In this document: piece by piece, positions 11,254-28,499 of the stretch
How the letters are laid out: each line of letters starts with the position of its first letter
How positions within the stretch are numbered: position 1 is the stretch's first letter
IMG/VR virus record: IMGVR_UViG_3300044655_001778
Location: 1 to 28,499 of that record
DNA: 28,499 nt
Source: a virus
Strand: one strand, 5' to 3'
The notes under the pieces: model-generated
Databases searched by the model: none
What the model was told of the DNA's origin: nothing
Seen by the model: the letters and a program-made list of their open reading frames with translations, nothing else
Position numbers and translations under genes: made by a program

Positions 11254-11458
11254 CACAAATTGATAAATTATTTATAATCCACTCAGACAGCTTTAAGCCC
11301 TCTGCCTGAGCAGCTTGTATAAAGCCATCTTTCTGGCCTTTCGTGCATCGGAACTGCACTGTGCTATGCGCAGGTTGTTCACCACGCATAGCGTTTTTAT
11401 TGTTGCGTGGTGCGCCTGGTTTATTCATCTTCATTGAAGAATTTATGTTCGTTTTCAT
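11243..11458 (-). CDS. RHH (Arc/MobA-like) DNA-binding protein, up to 71 aa
   Basis: The core HSTVQFRCTKGQ is followed by KDGFIQAAQAEGL and KLSEWIINNLSI, the strand-helix-helix of RHH proteins. Paralogue of the protein at 10413-10595. The N-terminal 25 residues are basic and Asn/Pro-rich. The start is uncertain: ATG 11458 gives 71 residues, while internal ATGs at 11434 and 11428 (MNKPGAPR) would reduce the overlap with the upstream gene; none has an ideal ribosome binding site. Its 3' end carries the promoter of the J-domain gene, so product binding there could autoregulate the cluster. Confidence 0.7.
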   Translation of the reverse strand: MKTNINSSMKMNKPGAPRNNKNAMRGEQPAHSTVQFRCTKGQKDGFIQAAQAEGLKLSEWIINNLSICVDK

Positions 11459-13846: not shown

Positions 13847-13886
13847 TCGTCGGGAGACGAAGCGACAATTTACTGTCGGGAGACAG
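13847..13886 (+). repeat. Two copies of the GTC-GAC leader hairpin (portal)
   Basis: Copy 1 is TCGTC-GGGA-GACGA (13847-13860). Copy 2 is CTGTC-GGGA-GACAG (13873-13886), ending one base before ATG 13888 and carrying the Shine-Dalgarno GGGAG in its loop. Both are 5-bp stems with a GNRA-type loop. Related copies occur at 16354, 18374 and 26861. Confidence 0.7.
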
Positions 13887-13887
13887 A

Positions 13888-15921
13888 ATGGCAATGACCG
13901 AAGATCAGCTTAAAGCTCTAACGGATATGGAAATCCAGCAGGCGCTTGGCTACAGCAGCTCAGAACTCACTAAACAGCGCCAAAAAGCGCTTGAGTATTA
14001 TTATGCAAAGCCGGTTGGTGATCTAGCACCGTCGTCTATCGATGGTCGCTCTTCTGTTGTTGCTACGGATGTTCTGGACACCGTTGAATGGATGCTGCCA
14101 TCGTTGCTTAAGATGTTTGCAAGCGGTGATAAGGTGGTCGAGTTTGTAGCAAAGTCCGAAGCATACGAGGAACAAGCCGAACACGTGACAGAGTACATTG
14201 GAAATCATGTTTTCCATGTGCAAAATACAGGCTTCCAGGTATTACAGACTTGGTTTAAAGATGCGCTACTCTCGAAAAACGGCATTGTCAAAGTCTGGTG
14301 GGATATTAGACAGGACGAAGCCAGGGAAGAATACAACGGCCTAAGCGATATTGAGTTGTCTATCCTGCTTGATGATCAACACGTTGAACCGATTGAGCAT
14401 AGCGCTATTTTGGACGAGTCAACAGGCGCACAGCTTCACAACATCGCCGTTAAACGTGTTGTTGATAAAGGGTTTTGTCGGATTGAAAACGTTCCTCCTG
14501 AAGAGTTCATTATCTCGAAACGGGCCAAAACGTGCGACGACTCACCTTTTGTCGGCCATCGTTTCCAGCGATCAATCGGTCAGCTCAAAGAATCAGGCTA
14601 TAAAAACATCGATGCATTAAGCAGTGATGATGCTGTGATTGATTCATCCGAAACAACAACACGCAACATATACGACAACACGCAAGTCAACAACGATGGC
14701 GACAACGGCGATCCGTCAAGCCGAATTGTTTGGGTGACTGAGTGCTATCTAAAGGTTGATTATGATGGTGACGGCATACCAGAATATCGGAAAGTCGTTA
14801 GAGCTGGTAATCAAATACTTGAAAATGTCGAGGTAGACGGTCAGCCTTTTGTCTCGTTATGTCCAGTGCCAATCCCACATCAGTTTTTTGGTCTTTCTAT
14901 TGCTGATTTAGCGATGGAATCACAACGCACTAAAACATCACTCATGCGAGCCATGATTGATAACCTGTATCTGTCTGTCAACGGCAGAACATGGGCACTG
15001 GAAGGTCAGGTCAATTTAGACGACTTGCTAACAAGTCGCCCTGGTGGTGTTGTGCGTGTCAAGCAAGCCGGAGCAGTAGGATCCATCCAGGCAGGTGCAG
15101 GGGATTTGCAGGGCGCTATGGCTATGATGGATTATGTGGATCAAGCGAGAGAAAACCGCACAGGATTTACAAGATACAGTCAAGGTGGTGATGCAGACGC
15201 TCTGAATCAGACCGCGACCGGAATGAATATCATCACGAACCGTGCGGATTCTAGAATCGAATTGATAGCTAGAAATTTTGCTGAAACCGGCGTAAGACAG
15301 TTGTTTCTAAAAATGCTGGAATTGGTCAGCAAGTACCAAGACAAAGCAGAGCGTATTAAAGCGACAAAGGGTTGGATTGATATTGACCCTAGAGAATGGA
15401 AAAATCAATTTAATCTGACTGTGAATGTTGGTCTTGGAACTGGCAACAAAGAGCAAATCACACAAAAGCTCAATACGCTATGGCAAGCGATGCAATCAGC
15501 AGCACAGGCCGGAGTAGTGCAGCCAGTCAACATCTACAAGGCCGGTCTAAAACTAGCCGAAACACTTGGATTTCCAGAACCAGAACTGTTTTTTACCGAT
15601 CCGTCTCAATTGCCGCCAAAACAGCAACAAGAAGATCCACAAACATTTACAGCCAAGGCCATGGTTGCTATTGAACAGCAAAAAATGCAACTGGAAGAGC
15701 GAAAAACGGTTGCAAAAATTGCACAAGATGACCGCAAGATTGAGGCCGACATCGAACTAAAGCGCACAGAATTGGCTTTGAAATACGATGCCAAAAAAGA
15801 GCAAATGCTAAACGAATTAATAGGGGGTCAAGTTGTCGCAGGACAATCTAACACAGGAAGCGCAGGCGGCTATATCCCGCCAGCAGCAGGCGGAATGGAT
15901 TTTAGACCACCCGTTGTTTAA
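13888..15921 (+). CDS. Portal protein
   Basis: Forms the dodecameric DNA gate at the capsid vertex. At 677 residues it is the size of P22/SU10-type podovirus portals. Typical features are an N-terminal region with RSSVVATDVLDTVEWMLPSL and LKMFASGDKVVEF, then GIVKVWWD, VPPEEFIISKRA, the wing/stem regions with SLCPVPIPHQFFGLSIADL and TGFTRYSQGGDADALNQTAT, and a long C-terminal helix (about 580-650, rich in Q, K, E) suited to a barrel. GGGAG in the second leader hairpin serves as ribosome binding site. The gene end overlaps the next small gene by 89 bases. Confidence 0.9.
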   Translation: MAMTEDQLKALTDMEIQQALGYSSSELTKQRQKALEYYYAKPVGDLAPSSIDGRSSVVATDVLDTVEWMLPSLLKMFASGDKVVEFVAKSEAYEEQAEHVTEYIGNHVFHVQNTGFQVLQTWFKDALLSKNGIVKVWWDIRQDEAREEYNGLSDIELSILLDDQHVEPIEHSAILDESTGAQLHNIAVKRVVDKGFCRIENVPPEEFIISKRAKTCDDSPFVGHRFQRSIGQLKESGYKNIDALSSDDAVIDSSETTTRNIYDNTQVNNDGDNGDPSSRIVWVTECYLKVDYDGDGIPEYRKVVRAGNQILENVEVDGQPFVSLCPVPIPHQFFGLSIADLAMESQRTKTSLMRAMIDNLYLSVNGRTWALEGQVNLDDLLTSRPGGVVRVKQAGAVGSIQAGAGDLQGAMAMMDYVDQARENRTGFTRYSQGGDADALNQTATGMNIITNRADSRIELIARNFAETGVRQLFLKMLELVSKYQDKAERIKATKGWIDIDPREWKNQFNLTVNVGLGTGNKEQITQKLNTLWQAMQSAAQAGVVQPVNIYKAGLKLAETLGFPEPELFFTDPSQLPPKQQQEDPQTFTAKAMVAIEQQKMQLEERKTVAKIAQDDRKIEADIELKRTELALKYDAKKEQMLNELIGGQVVAGQSNTGSAGGYIPPAAGGMDFRPPVV

Positions 15922-16117
15922 AGAGGCTTTGCAAGAGCTTGAACAGCGATACTTTGAAAAGTGGATTAATCAACCGGATTTAACAAAAGAAGAACGGGAA
16001 GAAATATGGCGAATGGTAAAGGCAATGCAGCACCTCAAGGGGCTGATGAAAGAATACATAGCGAAGGGCCAGCAAGCATATCAAACATTAGCTTTGCTGA
16101 ACTCGCAGATTGGGTAA
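15833..16117 (+). CDS. Hypothetical helical protein next to portal (94 aa, TTG start)
   Basis: Starts at TTG 15833 after GGGGG and runs in another frame through the last 89 bases of the portal gene. The product has AISRQQQAEWILDHPLFKEA, then LEQRYFEKWINQPDLT and EIWRMVKAMQHLKGLMKEYI: a nearly all-helical, charged protein. Small helical proteins of this type (with a Q-A-E-x-I-L-x-H-P-L-F motif) lie next to portal or TerL in many podoviruses; their function is unknown, possibly assembly. Its second half is overlapped by the next gene. Confidence 0.65.
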   Translation: MSQDNLTQEAQAAISRQQQAEWILDHPLFKEALQELEQRYFEKWINQPDLTKEEREEIWRMVKAMQHLKGLMKEYIAKGQQAYQTLALLNSQIG

Positions 16118-16290
16118 AAGATGCCGAAGAGATTAACCCAAATATCAGGATAGTCGAGGTTTCAAGCTCGGATGCCGATACGCCAGAGTCTTTAGTCTTG
16201 CGGTTTTCTCATCCTGTTGTCGTGTCGGGGGTTGATGGTTACACGCTCAACACTGGCGCGTTTGTAGCGTTTGAAAAAGGTGATATATGA
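16006..16290 (+). CDS. Hypothetical protein overlapping its neighbour (94 aa)
   Basis: Starts at ATG 16006 (GGAAG upstream) inside the preceding gene, in a different frame, for an overlap of 112 bases. The part beyond the overlap is convincing protein: NISFAELADWVKDAEEINPN, VVEVSSS-like strands and HPVVVSGVDGYTLNTGAFVA. The predicted fold is a helix followed by beta strands. The N-terminal 40 residues have low complexity, and no later in-frame start was found. Function unknown; likely a minor virion or assembly factor by position. Confidence 0.6.
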   Translation: MANGKGNAAPQGADERIHSEGPASISNISFAELADWVKDAEEINPNIRIVEVSSSDADTPESLVLRFSHPVVVSGVDGYTLNTGAFVAFEKGDI

Positions 16291-16328
16291 AAGGCAAAGG
16301 TAAAGGCGGCGGCGGCAAAAAATGCTAG
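16287..16328 (+). CDS. Putative Gly/Lys micro-peptide (13 aa)
   Basis: ATG 16287 overlaps the previous stop (ATGA) and the frame ends at TAG 16326-16328, giving MKGKGKGGGGKKC. AAAAAGGTG upstream can act as ribosome binding site. Very short Lys/Gly peptides ending in KKC or KC occur near scaffold and capsid genes of several podoviruses, which is why it is listed. It could still be chance. Confidence 0.35.
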   Translation: MKGKGKGGGGKKC

Positions 16329-16353
16329 CCCGTTAAACGATTTTTTAACTCTA

Positions 16354-16368
16354 ATGTCGAGATGACAT
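16354..16368 (+). repeat. GTC-GAC leader hairpin (scaffold gene)
   Basis: ATGTC-GAGAT-GACAT, a 5-bp stem with a 5-base loop, ends 13 bases before ATG 16382; AAGG after it serves as ribosome binding site. Third copy of the motif also found at 13847, 13873, 18374 and 26861. Confidence 0.7.
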
Positions 16369-16381
16369 AAGGCAGAAAACA

Positions 16382-17320
16382 ATGGAATCAGAAGCTACCC
16401 AACCGGGCGCGGAGATTGAGCAAACGGAATCCGGCTCGACCGGAAACGATGACGCGGCGTTATTGTCCGCGTATTTGGCTGAACAAGAGCAAGGCCAGCA
16501 AGGTGAAGTAGACGACAACCCCGAACCTGCTCGGCAAGTTGAAGATGAAACACAAGCGGCTATTGATACATTTTTAGTCAAGATTGACGGTGAAGAAAAG
16601 CAAGTTACACGCGACGAGTTAATCGCTCACTACCAAAAAGGCGAAGCATCCAATAAGCGTTTTGAGGAAGCGGCGGCTATACGGCGTGAGGTTGAGCAAC
16701 GAGCCGCAGTGGTAGCGCAAGAACAAGCGCAACTCAATGAAGCTTTGACACACTATCAGCAACAATTGCAGGGATTGATGCAACAAAATCAACCCGATTG
16801 GCAACGGTTGCTAAACGAAAACCCGCATGAGTATTTGCGGCAAAAAGAACTGTACGAAGCAAGACAAGCGCAATTGCAGCAAGCACAGGCGGCGCAAGCC
16901 TACCTGCAACAGCAGCAAGAGGCCGCATTGTCAGAGCAGATGCAGGCTTATTTGCAACAAGAAAGTGCAAGACTATTACAGATATTGCCGGAATGGAAAG
17001 ACCAGGGGAAATTTCAGGCTGAAAGCAAAGCGATTGTTGATTACATGATTAATAGCGGCTATTCAGAACAGGAAGTCCAAAACCTGAATCAATCCAGAGC
17101 TGAAAATATTGTGTTGGTAAGAAAAGCGATGCTTTACGACCAATTGATAAAAAAAGCATCCGGTGCAACAAAGAAAGTCAGCAGTTTACCGCCAAGAGTA
17201 GAAAGGCCGGGTGTTGTCAGCAATGACTCGCAAGGCGGTCTACTCGACGCTAAAAACAGGCTAGCAAAAACAGGCTCGATTGATGACGCGACTCACGCAT
17301 TTAGCGCATTATTCGGGTAA
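16382..17320 (+). CDS. Capsid scaffolding/assembly protein
   Basis: A 312-residue, acidic, Gln- and Glu-rich protein lying directly before the major capsid gene, the standard position of scaffold. The N-terminal 70 residues are disordered and acidic (TESGSTGNDDAALLSAYLAE). A short ordered segment, FLVKIDGEEKQVTRDELIAHYQKG, is the hallmark of phage assembly proteins of this type. A long coiled coil rich in Q and A (about 95-200) follows, and the C-terminal part is basic. It would template the procapsid and then leave. No protease domain is visible. Confidence 0.82.
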   Translation: MESEATQPGAEIEQTESGSTGNDDAALLSAYLAEQEQGQQGEVDDNPEPARQVEDETQAAIDTFLVKIDGEEKQVTRDELIAHYQKGEASNKRFEEAAAIRREVEQRAAVVAQEQAQLNEALTHYQQQLQGLMQQNQPDWQRLLNENPHEYLRQKELYEARQAQLQQAQAAQAYLQQQQEAALSEQMQAYLQQESARLLQILPEWKDQGKFQAESKAIVDYMINSGYSEQEVQNLNQSRAENIVLVRKAMLYDQLIKKASGATKKVSSLPPRVERPGVVSNDSQGGLLDAKNRLAKTGSIDDATHAFSALFG

Positions 17321-17352
17321 TTAATGACATATAGACCTAAGCAGGTGACAAC

Positions 17353-18336
17353 ATGGCCGCTATAGCCAATACATACCAAACATTCCAAGCAAAGGGTATC
17401 CGCGAAGATTTGTCGGATATTATTTACAAAATTACCCCGACGAAAACCCCGTTTTTGTCGGCCATTCCAAAAGTGAAAGCGTCAAACACGTTTCACGAAT
17501 GGCAAACTCAAGATTTGGCGGCTGTTACGGCTAACGCTCAAATCGAGGGTGACGACGTTTCAACCTATACAGCAGCGACACCTACCGTAAGGCTTGGTAA
17601 CTACACCCAAATTTCAACCAAAAATGTGATCATTTCCGGCACAAACCAAGCTGTAAAGGCGGCTGGCAGAAACAACGAAATGAGTTATCAAATGTCGTTG
17701 AAATCAGCCGAAATCAAGCGCGATATGGAAGGGGCTCTATGTTCTGCGGCTAACGGTGTGGCCGGTGCTGTGTCGAATGCCACCACAACCGCAACCCATG
17801 CCGGGTCATCTTCTGCCGCGCGTTATTTGCGTGGTTTGGAAGGTTGGATTGCAACAAACGTCGATCTTGGCGCTTCCGGTGTTGCTCCTGTTTATACCAT
17901 GGGTTCATGGGCAGCACCGACAGACGGCACTCAACGCGCATTTACAGAAGCGCAGTTGAAAAACGTATTGCAAAAAGCTTATACAGAAGGCGGAGAACCT
18001 GATTTAATCATGGTTGGCCCTGGGCAAAAGCAAACCTTTTCAACCTTCACAGGTGGCAATACCAAGTTTGACAAATCCGAAGATAAAAGCATCACCGCTT
18101 CTGTTGACGTGTATGTGTCCGATTTCGGTACGCTGAAAGTAGTACCAAACCGCTTTCAACGCTCACGCACTGCATTTGTGCTAGAGACTGAAAAATGGGC
18201 ATTGGCGACTTTGCGGCCATTCGATACTGTTGACCTTGGTAAAACAGGTGACGCAGATAAAAAAATGATCGTGGTTGAATACACTCTGGAAGCACGTCAA
18301 GAGAAATCAAGCGGCGCGGTTAAAGACTTGTCTTAA
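17353..18336 (+). CDS. Major capsid protein, SU10 type (DUF5309)
   Basis: A 327-residue HK97-fold subunit of the SU10_MCP family. The diagnostic N-terminal pattern is present: NTYQTFQAKGIREDLSDIIY, KITPTKTPFLSAIPKV, FHEWQTQDL, then TQISTKNVIISGT and the SAEIKRDMEGAL helix. LIMVGPGQKQTFSTF and VDVYVSDFGTLKVVPNR are the P-domain and A-domain strands of such proteins. AGGTGA lies five bases upstream. A terminator follows the stop, which would limit downstream expression relative to capsid. Confidence 0.93.
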   Translation: MAAIANTYQTFQAKGIREDLSDIIYKITPTKTPFLSAIPKVKASNTFHEWQTQDLAAVTANAQIEGDDVSTYTAATPTVRLGNYTQISTKNVIISGTNQAVKAAGRNNEMSYQMSLKSAEIKRDMEGALCSAANGVAGAVSNATTTATHAGSSSAARYLRGLEGWIATNVDLGASGVAPVYTMGSWAAPTDGTQRAFTEAQLKNVLQKAYTEGGEPDLIMVGPGQKQTFSTFTGGNTKFDKSEDKSITASVDVYVSDFGTLKVVPNRFQRSRTAFVLETEKWALATLRPFDTVDLGKTGDADKKMIVVEYTLEARQEKSSGAVKDLS

Positions 18337-18344
18337 TCCTGGGT

Positions 18345-18371
18345 GGGGCGTGTAACAGCGCCCCTTTCTTT
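18345..18371 (+). terminator. Terminator after the capsid gene
   Basis: GGGGCG (18345-18350) and CGCCCC (18359-18364) form a stem with an 8-base loop, followed by TTTCTTT. It starts nine bases after the capsid stop. The tail gene leader hairpin follows immediately, so read-through or a fresh start must supply downstream genes. Confidence 0.7.
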
Positions 18372-18373
18372 AC

Positions 18374-18388
18374 ACGTCGAGAGGACGT
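18374..18388 (+). repeat. GTC-GAC leader hairpin (post-capsid gene)
   Basis: ACGTC-GAGAG-GACGT, a 5-bp stem, ends one base before ATG 18390 and contains the Shine-Dalgarno GAGAGG in its loop and first 3' stem base. Fourth copy of the motif. Confidence 0.7.
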
Positions 18389-18389
18389 T

Positions 18390-18683
18390 ATGGACGAAGC
18401 AATACAAATTCAGGCGGCTGGGGTATCGATTACAACCAGCGGCACATCAGCCAGTCAGGCCATACCCAATGACTCAAGCGGTAGAAAAGCGCGTTATGTG
18501 CGCGTGGCTTGTACAGCATTGGCGTTTATCAAGTTCGGTGCTTCCGGTGTAGCGGCAACATCAAGCAATATTCTAATCATGCCAGGTGAAGCTGAAATAT
18601 TCATCGTGAGCGGCAATACCCATATTGCAGCCATACAACAAGCGGCAGCAGGCGTAGTCAATGTTACGCCAATAGAGGCTTAA
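18390..18683 (+). CDS. Small virion-associated hypothetical protein (97 aa)
   Basis: The protein starts MDEAIQIQAAGVSITTSGTS and is almost all beta: KARYVRVACTALAFIKFG, SNILIMPGEAEIFIV, THIAAIQQAAAGVVNV. The pattern of strands ending in an I-A-x-I-Q-x-A-A-x-G-V-V-N motif recurs in small proteins that follow the capsid gene in podoviruses, possibly capsid decoration or head-completion proteins. That function is inferred from position only. It is preceded by a leader hairpin that holds its ribosome binding site. Confidence 0.65.
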   Translation: MDEAIQIQAAGVSITTSGTSASQAIPNDSSGRKARYVRVACTALAFIKFGASGVAATSSNILIMPGEAEIFIVSGNTHIAAIQQAAAGVVNVTPIEA

Positions 18684-18685
18684 TT

Positions 18686-18970
18686 ATGGACATGCAAACA
18701 CAGCACTACATACAGGATGATTTGTTAGTCGTCCAATCTATGCAAGATTGCCAGCCTATTTTAGACAGTTGCAAAGCACGAGCTGATGCAGGGGCCACAG
18801 GTAGCAAAGACGTTAAACACGCAGCGAGCTTTCCCATGGCTGTTATTGAGTCGTATTGCAACCGGCTAAACATCACTTTTCAAGAGTGGCTGCAAAACGA
18901 CAAACACATAAAATCCATGCTCAACGATAAAGACTTGAGCGGGTTTAGAATCTGGCAGGGGGCGGTATGA
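18686..18970 (+). CDS. Hypothetical structural-module protein (94 aa)
   Basis: The frame begins MDMQTQHYIQDDLLVVQSMQ; a helical middle includes DCQPILDSCKARA, then HAASFPMAVIESYCNRLNIT and FQEWLQNDKHIKSMLNDKDL, ending in FRIWQGAV. The I-E-x-Y-C-N-x-x-x-I-T-F...ML-N-D...FRIW pattern is familiar from podovirus structural modules, but I know of no demonstrated function. It overlaps the next gene by four bases (ATGA), as in a coupled pair. Confidence 0.65.
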   Translation: MDMQTQHYIQDDLLVVQSMQDCQPILDSCKARADAGATGSKDVKHAASFPMAVIESYCNRLNITFQEWLQNDKHIKSMLNDKDLSGFRIWQGAV

Positions 18971-19269
18971 GTTACGGTGTAGGTAGTTATGAATCTGTTG
19001 CTGATTTGCCGTTGGCTTCTAAAGTTGGAATTGCAGTAGCTCAGGTTGGCATAAATCTGTACACAAGTAATGGGATTAGTTGGAATGTGGGAGCGTTATC
19101 AAACATGGTTTATGGTGCCAATGGTTTGCTCAGTTGGACAGAGGATAATATAGACTACACAGCGACCTATAGCGGCGGCAATATTGCAACAGTAACCGGC
19201 GGCGGTGTTGTTAAAACATTTACCTATAGCGGCGGTAAATTATCTGGCGTGACTGTGGGAGCTGCATAA
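18967..19269 (+). CDS. Small beta-repeat protein before the tailspike (100 aa)
   Basis: Starts MSYGVGSYESVADLPLASKV. An N-terminal segment resembling fibre-tip modules (ADLPLASKVGIAVAQVGINLY, with one strand per 10 residues) is followed by two short related repeats, YTATYSGGNIATVTG and FTYSGGKLSGVTVG. It overlaps the tailspike by one base (TAATG). It may be a tail or tailspike accessory subunit; that is inferred from the repeats and position. Confidence 0.6.
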   Translation: MSYGVGSYESVADLPLASKVGIAVAQVGINLYTSNGISWNVGALSNMVYGANGLLSWTEDNIDYTATYSGGNIATVTGGGVVKTFTYSGGKLSGVTVGAA

Positions 19270-21332
19270 TGGCGACTAGATATGTAGACTGCACAGTTTC
19301 AGCAGGTGTGGGCACAAACACAGGCACAGGCACAGAATTAGACCCATGGACTAACGTAGCATCCGCTTACACAGCCGCGACGGCTGGCGATACGATTTTG
19401 TTAAAAACAACAAAATCAGCTCCGTTTATGGTTACTGCAAATATTTCGGACACGAAAGGCGTGATTTTTGAACCGTGGGGGTCGGATAAGATTTACATCG
19501 ACGGCACAAATATGTCTGGGTCGTATGTGTTTCGGTTAGAACATGCCAATTCAGCGGCTAGAAAATGCGATATTAGCAAAACCAAGGTTTCAACCTATGC
19601 ATTTCGGATTAATGCGAATATTGCAGACGGCGCAATGGCTGACAACTATGTGCACGATTGCGCGGGTGATGCATTACTGACAGCGGCGGGTATTACATCG
19701 ACAGTTATTCTGCGGCGAAATCATTTCACACGCTGCAACATTGGACACAGGATTGATGCCCTTGGCGTTGGCGGACAGGTGCATATTTATGATACGCGTG
19801 ACGAAAATCATGCGTTGTATAGTCGCTCTGACGGTGCAAATACAGTTGTCAAAACATTCAGGTTGTTGTCTGGCGGACACACGAACGTCAATTGGCTGAC
19901 ACAAAACGGCGCGTCAACAGAACACAACAATCCGATTTTAATAGGTGGCGGCAAATTAGTAGCTCGCGACGTACAACAAAACACAGGTACAGGTGTAGCG
20001 GCTATTAAAGGTGGCGTTGTCACGTATCCCGTGCTGGATTCGACACCGTTTAATCTTGGCTTTTCCAATTCTGGCGGCGGCTCAAACACGTTAGATGCGT
20101 TAGTTAAAGGGCCAGCGGGTGAATCAGCAAAAATATTTAACAAGCCACGTCGCGGCGGCATGGTTTGTTTTATCCGTGATGATGTTGAGGCGTATGTGAC
20201 CGGCGGGGTTTTTGCAGGTGAATTAAACTCTTGGCTTGATGCTCTTGAGGCTCGCAGTCTGCGCGGAACATACGCAAATACAACCCGCGAAGGCGATAAC
20301 CCCAACGCTATATCGCCTGCGCAATGGCTTGAAATTAAATCCGTCATCGATAGGGGGCACGACCTTGCAACGCACGGGCGGACTGGCTGCCACATGCGGC
20401 ACGGCGGCGGCAATGGATTAGCCGCGCAATACACAGGCGCAGCAACAACAGTGAGATTCGTTATAGCGGCGAATCGTTTGCAAACATTTCACAACGGTAG
20501 CGCAACGCCAACACTGAATTATGATCTGATGCAATCCGGCATGACCATTTCCGGCATTGTCGGGCTTTTAAACGCCAACAGTTATACGGCAACCATTGCA
20601 ACGCTAGATACGTCACCAGCTGATGCTGTTCCCGCTAGATGTTTAGCAGATGTTGATATAGCTAACATCAAAACAGCGTCTAATAATCTGATTATTGATG
20701 CCGATCGGCTGGTCGATTGGGAAGTGACTGGTGCTGCTGATGATATTTTTAATAATACTGGCTACAGACCGAAAACCCATGTTTGGAGTGCTGGTAGTGC
20801 GAATTCAACAATTGCTGCAAAAGTTCTCAGTCGTGCCGGGTTTTATGGCGCGCGACTTGGATCAACTGTTGTGGCAAACATTACTGACGTAATTTATAAA
20901 TTCCCGCTTGAAGAATCAGGATACAGTTCTGCGGAAATGTTTGGATTGCATACCAACTTTTTAAATCAATCAACTGACGCTATTTTGACTCGATCAGTGC
21001 AAGCACTGTGTCATTGGGCAATGTGGCATGGTGTTCCACTTGTCATATACGCCCACGAATACGCCGAGTTTTCACTGGCTAAGTGGGGCGTTTTATTTGA
21101 TGCGGTCAAATCAACGGGCATTGCAATTGGCACATATACAGAGGTTGCAAAATGGGCCAAAGATACGGCAGCAACCAGGCCAACGCTTGAGCAGCAATAT
21201 ATCAATGATGATGCCTGGGATCCTGCTCTGAATAAAAATTCTGTTTATTTTGATTGGGCCTATGGTGCTGGTGGTGCCGGTGGTAGTGGCTTGAAATATC
21301 AAGTCACACCTAACTTATCAATACCGCTATGA
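19269..21332 (+). CDS. Tailspike with beta-helix and polysaccharide deacetylase-like domain
   Basis: A 687-residue receptor-binding and sugar-modifying protein. Residues 1-270 read as a parallel beta helix: RYVDCTVSAG...GTELDPWTNVASAYTAATAGDTI, followed by many short strands. From about 300 comes a NodB-like deacetylase region: the motif MVCFIRDDVEAY (metal-binding Asp pair), THGRTGCHMRHG (histidines), THVWSAGSANSTIAAKVLSR, GFYGAR, and VIYAHEYAEFSLAKWGVLFD. The exact metal triad differs in spacing from classical NodB (D-H-H). It probably binds and deacetylates or degrades host capsule or O-antigen. Position after the capsid module and before lysis genes is unusual for a spike. Confidence 0.78.
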   Translation: MATRYVDCTVSAGVGTNTGTGTELDPWTNVASAYTAATAGDTILLKTTKSAPFMVTANISDTKGVIFEPWGSDKIYIDGTNMSGSYVFRLEHANSAARKCDISKTKVSTYAFRINANIADGAMADNYVHDCAGDALLTAAGITSTVILRRNHFTRCNIGHRIDALGVGGQVHIYDTRDENHALYSRSDGANTVVKTFRLLSGGHTNVNWLTQNGASTEHNNPILIGGGKLVARDVQQNTGTGVAAIKGGVVTYPVLDSTPFNLGFSNSGGGSNTLDALVKGPAGESAKIFNKPRRGGMVCFIRDDVEAYVTGGVFAGELNSWLDALEARSLRGTYANTTREGDNPNAISPAQWLEIKSVIDRGHDLATHGRTGCHMRHGGGNGLAAQYTGAATTVRFVIAANRLQTFHNGSATPTLNYDLMQSGMTISGIVGLLNANSYTATIATLDTSPADAVPARCLADVDIANIKTASNNLIIDADRLVDWEVTGAADDIFNNTGYRPKTHVWSAGSANSTIAAKVLSRAGFYGARLGSTVVANITDVIYKFPLEESGYSSAEMFGLHTNFLNQSTDAILTRSVQALCHWAMWHGVPLVIYAHEYAEFSLAKWGVLFDAVKSTGIAIGTYTEVAKWAKDTAATRPTLEQQYINDDAWDPALNKNSVYFDWAYGAGGAGGSGLKYQVTPNLSIPL

Positions 21333-21499
21333 AAATCCACTGGAATCAACCAAGCACCCTACGGGGTGCAATCTGGCTAGTTGTTGGTATTGCGGGATTA
21401 ATACAATCCTGGGGCAATATCTCAATGCAGGATTTAATGTATCTTGGCGCTACTGTTGCAGGTGGTATGGGTGTGATGTCTGATGATGCTAAAAACTAG
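21329..21499 (+). CDS. Putative holin (56 aa)
   Basis: Starts at ATG 21329 (ATGA overlap with the tailspike stop). MKIHWNQPSTLRGAIWLV precedes a first transmembrane helix (about 12-27, VGIAGLIQSW) and a second (about 35-51, LMYLGATVAGGMGVM); the end is charged (SDDAKN). The W-x-x-P-S-T-x-R-G start plus two helices and a G-rich second helix fits a family of short phage holins that make the lethal membrane lesion for endolysin release. The two following genes complete a lysis cassette. Confidence 0.7.
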   Translation: MKIHWNQPSTLRGAIWLVVGIAGLIQSWGNISMQDLMYLGATVAGGMGVMSDDAKN

Positions 21500-21569
21500 C
21501 TTACTGCTACTGCTTGCCGCATGTAGCCACATAGCCTACGAAGCTCACCCTGCAAAAGGAGAGAAATAG
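21486..21569 (+). CDS. Micro-lipoprotein, Rz1-like or lysis-type (27 aa)
   Basis: The frame encodes MLKTSLLLLLAACSHIAYEA plus HPAKGEK. A positively charged start, a Leu-rich signal and the lipobox LAAC are clear; signal peptidase II would leave a 15-residue outer-membrane lipopeptide starting CSHI. It resembles a minimal Rz1-type outer spanin or a colicin-lysis-type lipoprotein. It overlaps the holin stop, and its own stop overlaps the next start by one base. ATG 21483 would add one Met. Too short for usual gene callers, but context and lipobox support it. Confidence 0.65.
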   Translation: MLKTSLLLLLAACSHIAYEAHPAKGEK

Positions 21570-21781
21570 TGCCAACACAAGAGCAATGTACACAGCTTAG
21601 CGTCAAGCAAGCGCAGCACGAAGCAAGGATTGAGGCTATCTCAGAAAGGCTTGATGAGTTACTTGAAGAGGTAAAAGGGCTTAGAAAATGGCTTTCCACT
21701 TATGGAACGGTGGTCTTAATTATTGCCATTCTCGGCGAACGAGCCGTTCCTATTGTGACTAAAATATTTGGTGCTAGTTAA
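21569..21781 (+). CDS. Coiled-coil protein with C-terminal membrane anchor (70 aa, lysis cassette)
   Basis: Starts at GTG 21569 with AAGGAGAG seven bases upstream. Residues 8-45 form a coiled coil (QLSVKQAQHEARIEAISERL, DELLEEVKGLRKWL); residues about 45-62 are hydrophobic (YGTVVLIIAILGERAV), giving a tail-anchored protein. The arrangement resembles XhlA-like proteins that assist holins. A spanin partner would have the opposite order (membrane helix first). It completes the cassette holin, lipoprotein, coiled-coil protein. Confidence 0.65.
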   Translation: MPTQEQCTQLSVKQAQHEARIEAISERLDELLEEVKGLRKWLSTYGTVVLIIAILGERAVPIVTKIFGAS

Positions 21782-22386
21782 TGATTACTGACTTCTCAAG
21801 CCTGCAAACTGCGATTGCTGCATGGACTCATAGAACCGATTTAACTAGCGTTATACCTGATTTTATCGGCATGGCCGAAAAACGTATGCAGGTTGATCTG
21901 AAAGTTTCGGAACTTGAAAAAACAGGCACTATTACAACAACAAGCGGCAACAACACGGTTACGCTTCCCACTGATTTCAGCACATTAATAGCAGCATCGT
22001 TAGATTCTGGCGGGCAAACAATCACGCTTGATTCTATGCCTTTGCATATTTTGCTTAATCAATACGGCAATTCTTCGACGGGTACGCCTCATAGTTACGC
22101 GTTACTGAATAACAGCTTGGTTTTAGGGCCAACGCCAGCAGGCGCGCTAACAATTACTGTTAGATATGCCTCGAACATACCGGCGCTTAGCGTATCAAAT
22201 ACAACCAATGACGTGCTAACAAAATACCCTGATTTGTACCTAAATTGCTGTATGGTTTTTGCTGCGCTATTTTTGCAAGATGATGGGCTGTTACAACGCT
22301 ATGAAGCTGCTTATCAACAAGCCATTAATGCTATCAATAATGCTGAATGGAGCAGGCATTCACCGATGACGATAAAGGCGGCGTAA
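21781..22386 (+). CDS. Head-tail adaptor protein
   Basis: A 201-residue protein with an N-terminal helical region, LQTAIAAWTHRTDLTSVIPD then FIGMAEKRMQVDLKV, in which the pattern F-I-x-x-A-E-x-R-[LM]-x-x-D-L is the hallmark of podovirus adaptors that sit under the portal (SU10/gp4-like). A beta-rich middle (VTLPTDFSTLIAASLDSGGQ) and a C-terminal helix (YLNCCMVFAALFLQDDGLLQ, YEAAYQQAINAIN) follow. It starts one base after the lysis cassette stop and ends overlapping the nozzle gene. Confidence 0.82.
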   Translation: MITDFSSLQTAIAAWTHRTDLTSVIPDFIGMAEKRMQVDLKVSELEKTGTITTTSGNNTVTLPTDFSTLIAASLDSGGQTITLDSMPLHILLNQYGNSSTGTPHSYALLNNSLVLGPTPAGALTITVRYASNIPALSVSNTTNDVLTKYPDLYLNCCMVFAALFLQDDGLLQRYEAAYQQAINAINNAEWSRHSPMTIKAA

Positions 22387-23840
22387 TGTTGAAATTTTTA
22401 CCTGATTCTACACCTGATACGCCAAGCGCTTTGCTGTATGTCAATAACATGATACCTACCCACAGAGGCGGCTATAAAACAGCGCTTGGCGCTCAAGCAG
22501 TTGGCAGTTATCCGGCATTAAGTGCAGCGGCATTAGGCTCGATCAGTATAGAAAAGCTGGACGGTTCAAGGCGTTTATTTGTCGGCACTGATACAAAACT
22601 GTACGAGGGCGCAAGCAATACATGGACAGATAGAAGCAAGGCGGGGAACTATACAGCGGGCGTTAAAAAATGGCGTTTTAGCCAGTTTGGCAATGTTACG
22701 CTGGCGGCCAATGGCATTGATAAAATTCAGGTCAGCACGACCGGCGCATTTTCAGATATTACCAATGCACCTGTAGCCAAGATTGTTGAAAATGCATCGC
22801 CTTTGTTCGTAATGGCGCTTGATACGGCTGCGTATGGGGCTAATAGCTGGTATTGCTCAGGCATTGCCGATTATACCGACTGGACTCCAAGCGCGGCGAC
22901 TTCATGCGCCTATGGTACGCTGTTGGACACTCCAGGGGCCATCACTGGCGGAAAACAGTTAGGCGAAAATTTTGTTATCTATAAACGCAATGCTATCTAT
23001 TTAGGGTCATACGTTGCCCCTGATCCGGTAATTTGGGCATTTTCTCTATTACCTGGCCCGGTTGGGTGCGTTTCACATGAGGCTATTGTTAATGCTGGTG
23101 ATTATCACCTGTTCATAGGCGATGGGGATTTTTACCTATTCGACGGCACAAGACCACGGCCTATAGGCGATGGTATAAAAAAATGGTTCTTTGCTAATGC
23201 ACTAGCAAGCCGGTTAAAGGATATTCAAAGTTTCCATGATCCATTAGAGGGGGTGGCGTATTGGTTCTATGTGTCCAATGTGGGCACAGTTATAGATTCA
23301 TGGGTGGCTTACAACTATAAAACGAGTTCCTGGGGGGCTGGATCGTTGTCCGGTGTAGAGTCAGTGGTTAATTACTTGACCTCTGTTTTTACATCGGACG
23401 ACATGGACGCGACGATTAAGCCGTCTTACGGGTACACTCCGACAATAGGCGGTGGTACTCCTATTTATTCTGAGGCCATGCGAAGATTGTCTTATTTTGA
23501 TTCAAGTCACGCATTCAAGGAATTATCCGATGCTGATACGGCCGGCGGCGAACTGATGACGGCAGACTTAGGCGACGATTCGCAGCGCTTCAGTTTGCTG
23601 AAGCGAGTAACGCCTATTTATCATGATGCTCCTACCACAGCCACGTTAAGCGCTTATTCGAGGCCAACATTAGCGCCAATGCCAACCCCAGCAAGCCCCA
23701 CAGCGACAGCGACACAAAACGCACAAGGTCGATTTGACTTTATGACGGCTGGCCGGGTGCATCGGGTTAAATTGTCACTCACAGGTTATGCTGAAATAGC
23801 TAAGTTAAACCCAGTCATAACCCCGCAAGGACTTGAATAA
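22386..23840 (+). CDS. Tail nozzle / beta-propeller virion protein
   Basis: A 484-residue protein starting at ATG 22386 (TAATG overlap; the upstream in-frame ATG 22347 lies in the adaptor gene). The sequence has repeated beta blades: GSISIEKLDGSRRLFVGTDT, KLYEGASNTWTD, WRFSQFGNVTLAANG, ENFVIYKRNAIYLGSYVAPD, YHLFIGDGDFYLFDGTRPRP, and a C-terminal beta domain. These match the nozzle proteins of short-tailed phages (P22 gp10/SU10-like), which extend the adaptor ring and close the DNA channel. It lies between adaptor and fibre, as expected. Confidence 0.82.
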   Translation: MLKFLPDSTPDTPSALLYVNNMIPTHRGGYKTALGAQAVGSYPALSAAALGSISIEKLDGSRRLFVGTDTKLYEGASNTWTDRSKAGNYTAGVKKWRFSQFGNVTLAANGIDKIQVSTTGAFSDITNAPVAKIVENASPLFVMALDTAAYGANSWYCSGIADYTDWTPSAATSCAYGTLLDTPGAITGGKQLGENFVIYKRNAIYLGSYVAPDPVIWAFSLLPGPVGCVSHEAIVNAGDYHLFIGDGDFYLFDGTRPRPIGDGIKKWFFANALASRLKDIQSFHDPLEGVAYWFYVSNVGTVIDSWVAYNYKTSSWGAGSLSGVESVVNYLTSVFTSDDMDATIKPSYGYTPTIGGGTPIYSEAMRRLSYFDSSHAFKELSDADTAGGELMTADLGDDSQRFSLLKRVTPIYHDAPTTATLSAYSRPTLAPMPTPASPTATATQNAQGRFDFMTAGRVHRVKLSLTGYAEIAKLNPVITPQGLE

Positions 23841-25570
23841 TGGGCCAATACAGCATTCCTCCACTACCAACGCCAAACGCACCCGATTTCGGGAACAAGC
23901 TGCGACAGGCATTAAATCAGATATTCAGGACGATTAATCAATCTATCAACACCAGCCATACACAATTACAAACCAACATCGATAACTTGGGGGCGATTGT
24001 TGGCGGCACTGGTGCGGTTTCTACCTATTTTCAGACCACAGAACCAACTACTGCGGCTTCAGGCGATCTATGGTTCGATACGGACGACAATAAAAAGATT
24101 TATCGTTATAGCGGCACAGCGTGGGAACTGGCAAGGGATGAAGGAATTGTTGCTGCAATATCGGCGGCAAACAATGCAGCCAACGACGCAGCGGCGGCAA
24201 TTGCTATAGCAGATGGCAAGATTACATCTTACTATCAAACGGCTGCACCAACCGGGTTGACTGCGGCTGATGCAGGCGATTTATGGTTCGATACGGACGA
24301 CGGTAACAAACTTTACAGATGGAGTGGCGCGGCATGGAATGCGGTACAAGATGCTGCCATCAGTACGGCTATCACAGCGGCAAACACGGCGCAAACCACA
24401 GCAGACGGGAAGATTTACTCGTATTACCAAACCACAGAACCGACAGGGCTTGTGGCTGGTGATGTTGGCGATCTTTGGTTTGATACAGACGACGGCAATA
24501 AACTGTATCGCTGGACGGGGTCGGCATGGGCAGCGGTACAAGATGCCGGGATAGCGACGGCATACAGTGCAGCCAACACCGCACAAACCACAGCAAACAC
24601 CAAAATATTAACATTTTTCGATACCGTAACCCCTACAGCAACGGCTATAGGTGATCTTTGGTACAACTCTTCAACCAAGCTTTTTAAGCGGTGGGATGGT
24701 GCAAGCTGGGTCAATGTCTCTAACCTGATTAACGGAACATCGGAAATAGCGGACGATGCAGGGCTGGGAACTACGGCAACATGGGGCGGCGTATCTGGAT
24801 CGGGTAAACCAGCGGATTACGCCACAGTGGGCGCAGCGATTGACACTAATTTAGTCGGTCAATTTAATAGCTCAAATATTAATACATACTTTGTCAACAA
24901 CTCTATTCCCAGTGCAAAAATATTAGAGATAACAGCAGACAAAATAAAAACCGGCACACTGGGGGCTTCTGAGGTCTTAACGGTGGGCACAGCAGTAAGA
25001 AGCGGCACATCAATGACTGGCGCGGGGGCGGTTTTTGACGGAAACGGCGGCAAGTTCTCGATAGGCAATGCAGCAACTAATATAACTTTTGACGGTATAA
25101 ACCCGATTTATGTGAATGGCGATATTATTTCAACAAGCAACTTAAAGGCAAATGCTACATTTGAAAAATGGCGCGACAGTTATTCTGTCAACTCTAATAT
25201 CACAACAACATTTGACGCACTGATAACAACAAAATCACTAACAACAGCCAATATAAAAACTGGCACGCTGCAATGCGATATTTATTTGTATATTGACGAG
25301 TTAGCAGTAAACGGAAGCACGAACTTGATTCAGCTTTATGCTAATTTAAAGAGGAATGGCGCTTTTGTTAAATCAACAATGAGCGGAACAGTTTTTTTGC
25401 CGTCTTATACAACTAGCAGAGGTACATACTTATCTGTTTTGCATTTGGTGGAATATATTGATGTTACGACAGGCGACGCGGTTTCTATAGAAATAAAGGG
25501 GCAATGCGATCAAAACAATAAAGTATCTGTTGGCACTATGTATGCATTTTGCACATTGCAAAAAAAATAA
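23840..25570 (+). CDS. Tail fibre protein with internal repeats
   Basis: A 576-residue protein. An N-terminal region of about 60 residues (NKLRQALNQIFRTINQSINT...coiled coil) probably anchors it to the tail. Three full repeats and one partial repeat of 64-68 residues follow (63-295), each with a beta part ending in GDLWFDTDD...YRWSG.AW and a helical A-N-T-A-Q-T-T-like segment. A C-terminal head (about 440-576) carries beta strands and DKIKTGTLGASEV-type spacer motifs. It would recognise the host surface. Overlaps the nozzle gene by TAATG. Confidence 0.82.
   Translation: MGQYSIPPLPTPNAPDFGNKLRQALNQIFRTINQSINTSHTQLQTNIDNLGAIVGGTGAVSTYFQTTEPTTAASGDLWFDTDDNKKIYRYSGTAWELARDEGIVAAISAANNAANDAAAAIAIADGKITSYYQTAAPTGLTAADAGDLWFDTDDGNKLYRWSGAAWNAVQDAAISTAITAANTAQTTADGKIYSYYQTTEPTGLVAGDVGDLWFDTDDGNKLYRWTGSAWAAVQDAGIATAYSAANTAQTTANTKILTFFDTVTPTATAIGDLWYNSSTKLFKRWDGASWVNVSNLINGTSEIADDAGLGTTATWGGVSGSGKPADYATVGAAIDTNLVGQFNSSNINTYFVNNSIPSAKILEITADKIKTGTLGASEVLTVGTAVRSGTSMTGAGAVFDGNGGKFSIGNAATNITFDGINPIYVNGDIISTSNLKANATFEKWRDSYSVNSNITTTFDALITTKSLTTANIKTGTLQCDIYLYIDELAVNGSTNLIQLYANLKRNGAFVKSTMSGTVFLPSYTTSRGTYLSVLHLVEYIDVTTGDAVSIEIKGQCDQNNKVSVGTMYAFCTLQKK
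24026..24724 (+). repeat. Tandem fibre repeats (about 192-204 bp units)
   Basis: Units begin at 24026, 24230, 24422 and 24614; the last is truncated. The DNA is nearly identical in blocks such as GATTTATGGTTCGATACGGA and GGCAA(T/C)AAACT(G/T)TA(T/C), so the copies are recent or kept alike by recombination. Units 2 and 3 are exactly 192 bp; unit 1 is 204 bp; unit 4 has diverged. Confidence 0.85.
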
Positions 25571-25578
25571 CCCAAAAA

Positions 25579-25587
25579 TGCTACAAT
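25579..25587 (+). promoter_or_regulatory. Possible extended -10 promoter before the cupin-like gene
   Basis: TGCTACAAT matches TGn-TATAAT except one base in the -10 (TACAAT). A TTGCAA sits 20 bases upstream of the -10, not at ideal spacing. The 53-base gap between fibre stop and the next ATG is unusually long for this operon, which supports a local start. Confidence 0.4.
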
Positions 25588-25623
25588 ATAACGTATCAAA
25601 AACAAGGTATTGGATATTTGTTG

Positions 25624-26136
25624 ATGAGTAAAAAGCTTACTCGAAAGCAGCAAAAAGCAGCTCGGCAACTAGCTATTCAAAAATATCGAGTGCAGAAAAT
25701 CGAGGATTTTTTAATTGATAATGTCGATCCTGTTGAATGTCCGGTAGTCCATCACTTTACAGACAACGAACAGCCTGAAATGAATGTATGTTGTCGTGAG
25801 TTCATGGTTCCTAAGGGCACGATATTAACCGGCACGATTTATAAACTTGAGTGCTTTTGGGTGATGGTTAAAGGACGCATGAGATTGATTGAAGGCGATC
25901 ATACGCGAGAAATTGAAGCGCCTGTTTTGCTGAAAAACGTAGTGAATACCAAAAACTCAGGGTATGCATACGAAGATTGTTTATTCTACGGATTTACACC
26001 GAATCCCACTAATTCAAGGGATTTGCATGAAGTCATCAATACCTTTTCAGCGATTGATGCAAACGAAATACAAGGGATGCCAGGTAACAAGCAGCAAGCA
26101 AACTATGAAAGGAGATTGTTAAATGAGGCTCATTAA
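25624..26136 (+). CDS. Cupin-like hypothetical virion-region protein (170 aa)
   Basis: Taken from ATG 25624; the frame is open to 25549, but that part overlaps the fibre end and promoter. A basic N terminus (MSKKLTRKQQKAARQLAIQK, helical) is followed by a beta-rich core: CREFMVPKGTILTGTIYKLE, CFWVMVKGRMRLIEGD, IEAPVLLKNVVNTKNSGYAY, and EDCLFYGFTPNP. The G-T-I...V-x-x-G-x-[MI]-x-[LI]-x-x-G spacing resembles a cupin fold such as sugar-binding or regulatory domains. Proteins of this shape occur with tail fibre genes in podoviruses, but their function is unknown. Overlaps the next gene by 14 bases. Confidence 0.65.
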   Translation: MSKKLTRKQQKAARQLAIQKYRVQKIEDFLIDNVDPVECPVVHHFTDNEQPEMNVCCREFMVPKGTILTGTIYKLECFWVMVKGRMRLIEGDHTREIEAPVLLKNVVNTKNSGYAYEDCLFYGFTPNPTNSRDLHEVINTFSAIDANEIQGMPGNKQQANYERRLLNEAH

Positions 26137-26845
26137 AACGAATTTTAGGTTTTTTTGTTGGCTGTTAAGCGGCCTACCAATGCATTTTGCCGGTGTTTCA
26201 GCGGGGACAGCGGCGGCAGTGGCGGCGGCGGCGGCGGGAGTTGCTGGGGCAGTTACAAAGAACAAAGGCGCAAAGCAAATGGGGGCTGGTGGTAGCGAAT
26301 CGACAACACAAACCAGCGTAAAAACCCTGCCAAAGTGGCTTCTGAATGATGCCAAGGCTTACCTTGAACGACAATACAATCTAAGCAACAAGGATTATGA
26401 ATCCTATCCAGGCTTCTATCAGCAACTCGCAAAAGAAGGGCAGGCAGCACAGGCCGCACAAAATGATTTTTTTGGCAGCACGGCTTTTAGACCGGCACAG
26501 CAAGCAGAGCCGCAGCAATTCAGGAATATAAATGATCGTGCGTATAACCCGTTGACTGCAAAACCTGGGGAGGCTTTGCCGGTAGCGCTTCAAAATGACG
26601 CTTATAATCGGTTGATGAGGCAGCAAAGGGATAATCCAAACTTCACGCCTCAAGTGGTCGATCAGCGGCAATATGACGCAATGAAAAAGCAGTACGGAAA
26701 GCTTTTCACAGGCATGAAAGATAACTTTTTTGTGACTGATCCAAGCCAGTATGCACAAATGCTAAACGTACAGCGACCACAGCAACAAGGATTGTTTGAG
26801 CAGTACGGCGGCAATTTAAACGGTATCGGGTTTTTAGGTCGATAA
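26123..26845 (+). CDS. Putative internal virion / DNA ejection protein A (240 aa)
   Basis: Starts at ATG 26123 with GGAG seven bases upstream. The first 50 residues are very hydrophobic: FRFFCWLLSGLPMHFAGVSA, then an Ala/Gly run (GTAAAVAAAAAGVAGAV) from a GGC/GCG-rich DNA stretch (26200-26240). The remainder is hydrophilic, Gln/Asn-rich with many aromatic residues (LERQYNLSNKDYESYPGFYQ, YDAMKKQYGKLFTGMKDNFF). A membrane-inserting N terminus on a Q/N-rich soluble body is expected of proteins ejected into the cell envelope. It directly precedes a similar larger gene. Confidence 0.6.
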   Translation: MRLIKTNFRFFCWLLSGLPMHFAGVSAGTAAAVAAAAAGVAGAVTKNKGAKQMGAGGSESTTQTSVKTLPKWLLNDAKAYLERQYNLSNKDYESYPGFYQQLAKEGQAAQAAQNDFFGSTAFRPAQQAEPQQFRNINDRAYNPLTAKPGEALPVALQNDAYNRLMRQQRDNPNFTPQVVDQRQYDAMKKQYGKLFTGMKDNFFVTDPSQYAQMLNVQRPQQQGLFEQYGGNLNGIGFLGR

Positions 26846-26860
26846 TTACACGCTTTAACC

Positions 26861-26875
26861 GCGTCGTGATGACGC
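26861..26875 (+). repeat. GTC-GAC leader hairpin (ejection gene)
   Basis: GCGTC-GTGAT-GACGC, a 5-bp stem with a 5-base loop, ends 16 bases before ATG 26892; AGGAG (26879-26883) follows as ribosome binding site. Fifth copy of the motif. Confidence 0.7.
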
Positions 26876-26891
26876 TATAGGAGTGCCACAC

Positions 26892-28499
26892 ATGGCCGCT
26901 AATACAGCCAAGAAACAGGCAAAACAAGACCCCAGCGCCTACTACCAACAGGCTATTGCAGATGGCTTGTTGGATAATCAAGAAATTGCATTCTTGAAGC
27001 AGACAAAAGCCGGTAAAGGGTTAATCAATGCCGAAAAAAGCCGGTTAAATGATGAATTGTCTAAAGGCAATTATGGCGCTTTGAATCCCTACATCACGGC
27101 AGGCAAAACCGGATCGAATATGTTTAAGGGTGTGGATAAGCTGAATAGCGCCAATCTGCAAACCATTTTGCAAAGTGTCAACAAGGCCAACTCAGGCAAA
27201 ATTAACCCCGATTTAAGCCAGCTAGACCCGGCAACCCAAGGATTTTACGCCAACATGGCTAAAAGCCTTGGCTATGACAATCTGTTGAATGATCAATGGA
27301 AAGCTGAGCTTGGCGGAAAGAATATGTACCTGGGGGCTGATGGTAAGCTGCAAATGACTACAGCAGGCCAGAACGCTTATAAAACCGGCATTAATAGCGC
27401 TGGCAATCTAACCGACTATCAAAAGCAGTTTGTGTACGATAACTATGCAAACCAGTTTTATAACGCTGATGGCTCATTAAATGAAACCGGGCAAGGCAAG
27501 TTTAACGACTTCTGGCAAACTTCCGGCACAGCCGATAGAACGGCGGCACTGGATAAATTTAACCAGCAATACAACCCGATTTACAAGCCCACAACGCAAA
27601 CGGGAACAACGCCTACACAAGGCGGCGGCTCACCGACAGTAGCGCCTACAAATCAAAATCAGCTTAACGAGTGGTCATCTAATAACCTGATGGGCACTAC
27701 TCAAGCCCCGTTGTCACAGCAAAACATCGATGCTTTGAAATCCATGGAAAGCACAGCCAGGGAAAATATAGCAGGCGGTGACAAATACGGGGCTATCCGT
27801 AATCAGCTTATGGGCATGGTTAGCAATACCGAGAAAAACCCATTTATCGGCACAGCTAACCCTTATTTGCAGGCCGTCATTGACGCAGCAAACGAGGACA
27901 TTACCAAGAACTACAATAACAATGTGATGGCTTCCACCAATGCCACAATGGCAAGAAATAACGCCTTTGGCGGCTCAGCATGGCAGCAAGCACAGGATGA
28001 TAACGCGCATAGACTAGCCAAGGACTTAAGCACCAATACTGCTACTATGAGAATGCAGGACTACAACCAACAGGCGGGGTTGTGGCAGCAAGACCAAAAC
28101 AGACGCTTAAATGCAGCCGGTTTATATGGCAACTATGCCAACGATTCACGCTATAACGACGCTAATATGCTGATGGGTGTAGGTGATCAATACCGCAACT
28201 ATTCACAAGGTCTCATCAATGAGAACCTGAAAAACTGGCAAGATCAGCAGAACTGGGCGCAACAACAAAATGACCGATACGGCAACGCTATTAACATGCT
28301 AGCGCAATCCAACAACTCGACCACCACAACGGGCAGCGGCCAGAGTCAACAGACATTACCTGGGGCTGGTTGGGGCGGTGTGGCTGGGCAGGCTTTAGGT
28401 GCTGGATTGTCGGCTTACTCTATGTTTGGCGGTGGCGGTTTTGGTGGCGGTGGCAATACAGGGAGTATTAACCAAGGCAACGCCAGCTTAAACAACATG
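26892..28499 (+). CDS. Putative ejection/internal virion protein B (3' truncated by window edge)
   Basis: An uninterrupted frame from ATG 26892 to the last base, at least 536 residues. AGGAG lies eight bases upstream. The product begins MAANTAKKQAKQDPSAYYQQ, is rich in Asn, Gln, Ala and Tyr, and contains many helical segments (NPYLQAVIDAANEDITKNYN, ARNNAFGGSAWQQAQ). A Gln/Asn-rich late part leads to a glycine-rich tract (SAYSMFGGGGFGGGGN) near the edge. Such a composition with a glycine hinge is typical of internal or tail-tip proteins ejected with DNA. Exact family and C terminus unseen. Confidence 0.7.
   Translation, partial: MAANTAKKQAKQDPSAYYQQAIADGLLDNQEIAFLKQTKAGKGLINAEKSRLNDELSKGNYGALNPYITAGKTGSNMFKGVDKLNSANLQTILQSVNKANSGKINPDLSQLDPATQGFYANMAKSLGYDNLLNDQWKAELGGKNMYLGADGKLQMTTAGQNAYKTGINSAGNLTDYQKQFVYDNYANQFYNADGSLNETGQGKFNDFWQTSGTADRTAALDKFNQQYNPIYKPTTQTGTTPTQGGGSPTVAPTNQNQLNEWSSNNLMGTTQAPLSQQNIDALKSMESTARENIAGGDKYGAIRNQLMGMVSNTEKNPFIGTANPYLQAVIDAANEDITKNYNNNVMASTNATMARNNAFGGSAWQQAQDDNAHRLAKDLSTNTATMRMQDYNQQAGLWQQDQNRRLNAAGLYGNYANDSRYNDANMLMGVGDQYRNYSQGLINENLKNWQDQQNWAQQQNDRYGNAINMLAQSNNSTTTTGSGQSQQTLPGAGWGGVAGQALGAGLSAYSMFGGGGFGGGGNTGSINQGNASLNNM

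Follow-up and report, generated by a model that had tools for sequence, protein, structure and literature searches.

The virus record IMGVR_UViG_3300044655_001778, analysed here over its full 28,499 bases and called the window, carries small hairpins of one recurring form before several of its virion genes, and these hairpins, together with a wider leader element that they resemble, are the subject of this report. It has an early region, a repressor/cro-like pair near 678-1263 and a virion module of the LUZ24 type, which runs from 12,007 onward and comprises small and large terminase, portal, scaffold and major capsid, followed by tail and ejection genes. The portal (13888-15921; phrog_1216, E 5.5e-152), scaffold (16382-17320; phrog_3927, E 2.2e-45) and major capsid (17353-18336; phrog_1328, E 4.3e-104) genes all lie on the + strand, as do the post-capsid gene, an entry of the open reading frame (ORF) list that encodes 97 amino acids directly after the major capsid gene (18390-18683) and whose product had no match in the family search, and a putative DNA-ejection gene (26892-28499; weak match to phrog_4287, E 1.2e-4), which is cut by the end of the record.

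Five hairpins precede four of these genes, all of them intergenic, on the + (coding) strand and with five Watson-Crick pairs each; their places and sequences are those given by a sequence-only reading of the window, and the genes behind them are the portal, scaffold, post-capsid and, on its weak match, ejection genes that it had named. The portal leader holds two, TCGTC-GGGA-GACGA (13847-13860), which lies 27 nucleotides (nt) before the ATG and has predicted pair probabilities of 0.82-0.96, and CTGTC-GGGA-GACAG (13873-13886), which lies 1 nt before the ATG and is present in the minimum-free-energy fold, yet reaches a pair probability of just 0.22 in longer context. In the scaffold leader ATGTC-GAGAT-GACAT (16354-16368) abuts the Shine-Dalgarno sequence (SD) AAGG, and 1 nt before the post-capsid ATG stands ACGTC-GAGAG-GACGT (18374-18388), both with predicted pair probabilities of 0.91-0.99. 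The fifth, GCGTC-GTGAT-GACGC (26861-26875), is found 4 nt before the SD AGGAG of the ejection gene. As had also been read, the SD sits inside the hairpin in two cases, occupying loop and 3' arm of the second portal hairpin (GGGAG) and of the post-capsid hairpin (GAGAGG).

When both strands of the 28.5 kb were scanned for GTCGNGA(N0-2)GAC, five occurrences were found, all on the + strand, and none in the early region, in agreement with the earlier claim, or in coding sequence. The same pattern occurs on average 0.18 times in 100 dinucleotide shuffles of the window, none of which reaches five. The hairpins occupy four of the seven late intergenic gaps of at least 30 nt. The post-capsid leader holds in addition a terminator-like hairpin behind the capsid gene (GGGGCG..CGCCCC, then TTTCTTT; 18345-18376). 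Its loop, CGTGTAA, could pair alternatively, in the manner of an attenuator, with the complementary TTACACG at the base of the GNGA hairpin; as a general feature this terminator/antiterminator overlap was rejected, the related contig L002 being without it.

Capsid homology brought 80 viral contigs, which are fragments and in which start codons were picked by rule; a scan of genome contigs returned distant relatives only. The nearest group (L001-L006, L012, L092-L098) carries hairpins at the orthologous scaffold, capsid and post-capsid leaders. Those of the scaffold leader resemble that of the window in L001-L006, L092, L097 and L098 (TCGCC-GTGA-GGCGA in L001), and about 10 nt after the first, L002-L006 have a second one, which reads ACGCT-GAGA-AGCGT in L002 (3413-3426), L005 and L006 and ACGCT-GTGA-AGCGT in L003 and L004. 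At the post-capsid leader, L001-L006 and L012 have TTGTC-GGGA-GACAA or CTGTC-GGGA-GACAC. The major capsid leader of the window, 32 nt long, is without a hairpin; L001-L006 carry one at that place, with the cores GTC-GAGA-GAC (L002, L004), GTC-GAAA-GAC (L003) and GCC-GAGA-GGC (L005/L006).

Over the orthologous leaders the inner pairs appear in the combinations GTC/GAC, GCC/GGC, GCT/AGC and GCA/TGC. The claim that the inner three pairs never change is accordingly right inside the window and wrong in the relatives, where closing and middle pairs swap with compensation, whereas the constant loop G-N-G-A stays fixed in relatives together with the third pair, G-C. Orthologous capsid and post-capsid leaders show either a complete hairpin with swapped pairs (outer C-G, G-C or U-A; middle C-G or U-A; closing C-G, U-A or A-U) or an unrelated leader, and a loss of pairing in relatives was looked for and is absent, the element being intact or wholly missing. 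The capsid proteins of L007-L010 and L013 are 81-83% identical, yet these contigs have no copy of the element and show short AT-rich leaders instead.

More distant capsids revealed a common form, CYUAA-CGYN-GNGA(N)-N'RCG-CYGGAG-(A-rich)-AUG, in which a short stem (5'-..G-Y-N / N'-R-C..) with a GNGA(N) loop lies 5' of, or overlaps, the SD of a virion gene. Over all leaders collected, GNRA-capped hairpins of at least 4 base pairs (bp) number 117 versus 13 in dinucleotide shuffles. For a test without selection on pairs, IMG/VR was scanned with TAACGNNGNGANNCGCTGGAG, in which flanks and loop are fixed and the two inner pairs are free. Among the matches listed, both inner pairs are Watson-Crick in 77 of 79 distinct sites, in seven combinations, compared with a mean of 19.3 and a maximum of 34 when partners are re-dealt; one of the two non-pairing sites is a G-U wobble, and in 76 of the 79 a start codon follows GGAG by 4-12 nt. 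A first pattern scan of IMG/VR, with the letters of the middle pair independent, gave pairing in 60 of 60 sites among the matches listed (42 C-G, 18 T-A). Selection on the flanks only, which left stem and loop unconstrained, gave four of four pairs and GNGA(N) loops in 106 of 114 sites (shuffle mean 34, maximum 48), part of these 114 loci having come from a pattern scan that fixes some stem letters, and loci fetched by capsid homology alone have all four pairs in 35 of 40 cases.

Pair counting in an alignment of 35 sites (A1) finds 98.6% paired cells and 28 double changes in the core helix, which none of 500 shuffles reaches, and structures slid along the alignment collapse. A1 shows no variation at loop letters 1, 3 and 4 (G, G and A) or in the third pair, G-C, the canonical loops being GAGA, GCGA and GTGA. 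As GNAA loops are at least as stable as GNGA loops, the G at loop position 3, found in 35 of 35 sites, points to specific recognition. The spacing from hairpin to SD is most often 2 nt. Since the UAA before the hairpin is the stop codon of the upstream gene in just 17 of 101 cases, it belongs to the element itself, and stop-codon coupling was rejected on this ground. There is good support for selection acting on the hairpin as an RNA structure: its pairs are exchanged freely, it always points the same way as its gene, and it is the SD to which it is spaced, all of which speaks for RNA. The selection on structure that the sequence-only reading had proposed, with RNA and DNA both in view, is therefore strongly supported for RNA.

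The capsid genes that the same element precedes belong to at least three unrelated families, phrog_1328 (LUZ24-type), phrog_371 and phrog_283, and possibly to a fourth (phrog_6671/264); the element also stands before genes of a major tail protein (phrog_584), the virion protein phrog_1731, tail-fibre-like proteins and a large terminase (TerL); wherever the downstream gene could be identified, it is confined to virion and packaging genes. A covariance model built from A1 (R1) has 35 matches (E up to 0.1) in 0.54 Mb of element-bearing contigs, a count that is partly circular, as some sites are shared with A1, and whose E-values are rough; the 0.50 Mb made up of element-free podophage relatives and four reference phages yields no match. 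Most genomes have either 3-6 copies or 0-1, a bimodal distribution, and presence between phages is all-or-none. At the leaders inspected in LUZ24, Venkman, MW202481 and the Bradyrhizobium prophage OP596614 there is no element, and a short-query BLAST in a phage collection gave no convincing site. Among bacteria, the 369 genomes scanned from one class held a single match, which does not pair, and the 299 from one order held none, samples outside which the true hosts may lie; with one non-pairing match in ~670 bacterial genomes, a host-wide element was rejected. No covariance model of Rfam 15 matches the window or the elements of seven relatives at gathering score, permissive scans staying at chance level, and no description of such an element was found in the open-access literature. 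In the contig of G394, whose IMG number resembles that of an isolate genome, two tandem copies 42 nt apart (26345-26404, L331) stand before a gene of 322 amino acids.

Within the window R1 touches the ejection-gene hairpin alone, and weakly (10.4 bits, E 0.9). The window elements agree with the canonical form in their hairpin core, in the set of genes they precede and in lying near the SD, and are without the CYUAA and CYGGAG flanks; we consider it likely that they are a looser sub-group of the same element.

From the arrangement of these leaders we lean, by a modest degree, towards the reading that the hairpins are a cis-acting RNA leader module of virion genes, a composite ribosome-binding site that would set their translation. 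Such a module consists of a 4-5 bp stem ending in G-Y-N with a GNGA or GNGAN loop of the GNRA type, immediately 5' of or overlapping the SD, so that on late mRNA hairpin and SD, at a short and often fixed spacing, would form one site. Something common to many hosts, whether an RNA-binding protein of the host or the 30S subunit itself at the mRNA exit, may recognise this site as a unit, and recognition would set translation jointly for the capsid, scaffold, portal, tail and ejection cistrons. Action on translation initiation is suggested by the position relative to the SD, and a reader that is not phage-encoded by the finding that no phage gene tracks the element; stimulation or late-selective initiation would be more likely than repression.

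In a shallow blastp comparison of incomplete contigs no protein family combines presence in each of 14 element-bearing podophages with absence from 12 element-free relatives, nor is any common to all the podophages and three unrelated element-bearing phages. A common factor encoded by the phages was rejected, as the best-tracking family, NinB-like, occurs in 9 of the 14 and in 2 of the 12, and in none of the three unrelated phages. Phage ribosomes specialised by bS21 were likewise rejected, PF01165 being absent in 15 records with controls fine, and csrA (PF02599) is absent in 15 element-bearing records with controls working, a host CsrA being possible. As no phage gene family tracks the element and the phage records contain neither bS21 nor CsrA, we favour recognition by a host factor or by the 30S subunit. 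Only tentatively do we go further and suggest that the element may be an undescribed class of leader RNA, a portable ribosome-binding module of virion genes in unrelated tailed phages that would be read by the host translation machinery.

Several observations weigh against a composite ribosome-binding site of this kind. The window elements lack the conserved flanks and score poorly with R1, their identity resting on core, gene position and intermediate relatives. The element does not raise the predicted accessibility of the SD (0.37 unpaired with it versus 0.41, p 0.06), and the region of the ribosome-binding site is slightly less accessible with it (p 7e-5); exposure of the SD by the hairpin is therefore not supported, and the lack of a gain disfavours a plain unfolding enhancer and leaves room for repression. 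Moreover, in each of the 35 aligned sites the CY that precedes the UAA is able to pair with GG in the SD, as in an SD-sequestering reading, a pairing that yields no covariation because the SD cannot vary.

This pairing would also suit a translational operator, at which a phage protein, for example a virion protein, would bind the GNGA hairpin by the SD and repress the virion cistrons, in the way of T4 gp43 or the coat proteins of ssRNA phages at their operators. In its favour, the hairpin touches or overlaps the SD, the sequence of the loop and of the third pair is constant, as recognition by a protein would need, and gp43 of T4 uses a hairpin operator near the ribosome-binding site (PMC3014915). 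We nevertheless find an operator doubtful, as there are several elements per genome on different genes, the same element serves unrelated virion modules and no protein family tracks it in the comparison of 14 with 12 podophages and three unrelated phages, although a small diverged protein could escape shallow blastp on incomplete contigs. T4 translational operators are the nearest working analogues. The operator of T4 gene 43 (DNA polymerase) is, like the element, a short hairpin of phage mRNA with fixed loop letters near the ribosome-binding site, but it serves one early gene autogenously, ~40 nt upstream and with the loop UAAC (PMC3014915), whereas the element lies on many late virion genes, has a GNGA loop and is usually a few nt from the SD.

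An RNA processing or stability element, which would mark or protect the new 5' ends left by cleavage of polycistronic late mRNA, is in our view unlikely. It would fit the position between cistrons and shortly before the SD, with U/C-rich single-stranded stretches often preceding the hairpin, and the one window copy that directly follows the terminator-like hairpin behind the capsid gene; a stability cap, however, needs neither the fixed GNGA loop nor the short spacing to the SD, no U tract of the terminator type is present, and a 4-bp stem is too short for RNase III. The RNase III intercistronic sites of T7 are also repeated hairpins just upstream of cistrons, but these have long stems that RNase III cuts, in contrast to the 4-5 bp found here.

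Two further RNA systems invite comparison with the element. Lambda-type boxB is a 15-nt hairpin with a 5-bp stem and a GNRA-like pentaloop, bound by the N peptide; its place is in nut sites, alongside boxA, and its effect is on transcription elongation. Three window hairpins fit its 5-bp stem and GNRA-like pentaloop, while most elements have 4-bp stems and tetraloops; unlike boxB, the element is repeated within a virion operon, every copy being linked to an SD, and its leaders share the CYUAA flank. No N-like gene was identified, no search aimed at N genes or boxA having been made. Sites of CsrA/RsmA are, like the element, small hairpins at SDs with conserved loop purines, and CsrA needs GGA in the hairpin loop. 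The two portal hairpins of the window do have the loop GGGA, but it occurs in 0 of 35 canonical sites, and as none of these has GGA in its loop, a CsrA site was rejected.

A DNA hairpin promoter of the type used by the virion RNA polymerase of N4, or another DNA palindrome, is very improbable. The promoters of N4 likewise form small hairpins whose loop letters are fixed while the pairs vary, and they depend on conserved bases as well as on formation of the hairpin; they are made of DNA, however, have loops of 3 nt closed by a required G:C pair, stand before early genes and are read by a giant virion polymerase (PMC4496689). The loops here have 4-5 nt, the closing pair is C-G, U-A or A-U, and the position is locked to the SD and not upstream of operons; the likeness is one of shape alone. 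That polymerase has ~3500 amino acids; no ORF exceeds 865 in the element-bearing podophages, the longest there and in G384/G385 having 864, and the longest in G394 has 1473, the window being a fragment, and a PF00940 search gave no match, the controls being equally without one. Loop size, closing pair and ORF sizes led us to reject this idea, which the sequence-only reading had raised. Chance, or inheritance of duplicated leaders without function, which similar copies inside one genome (GTCGGGAGAC, several times in L005) might suggest, has practically no probability left, being refuted by the pairing of 77 of the 79 listed sites despite swapped pairs, by the 100 window shuffles of which none reaches five and by conservation across unrelated phages.

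Other features were seen in passing. Between the early and late regions of the window, a DnaJ-domain gene lies between two genes of the opposite, - strand (10413-10595 and 11243-11458), whose small products resemble each other and give weak TacA1 and NikA-like matches. The left end (1-90) holds short near-perfect direct repeats of the aactcaagttggcatcacgc type, similar to the repeats of pentapeptide-repeat genes. In two relatives, L199 (7456-7808) and L203 (8860-9090), the capsid region contains group I introns (Rfam RF00028).

Control of the structural genes of tailed phages is usually ascribed to promoters and ordinary SDs. The element described here, judged by where it stands in the leaders, probably controls translation of virion genes, and a compact, strongly covarying hairpin on the virion genes of phages with unrelated capsids, which close relatives and the bacterial genomes sampled lack, points to an unnoticed common post-transcriptional layer. 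The phages that bear it are mostly uncultured and many are unrelated to each other; their dozens of natural variants with compensatory pairs are a ready test set, and the element would help gene calling in such phages. If the proposed mechanism is true, a GNGA hairpin rigidly joined to the SD would give virion mRNAs privileged or late-timed translation.

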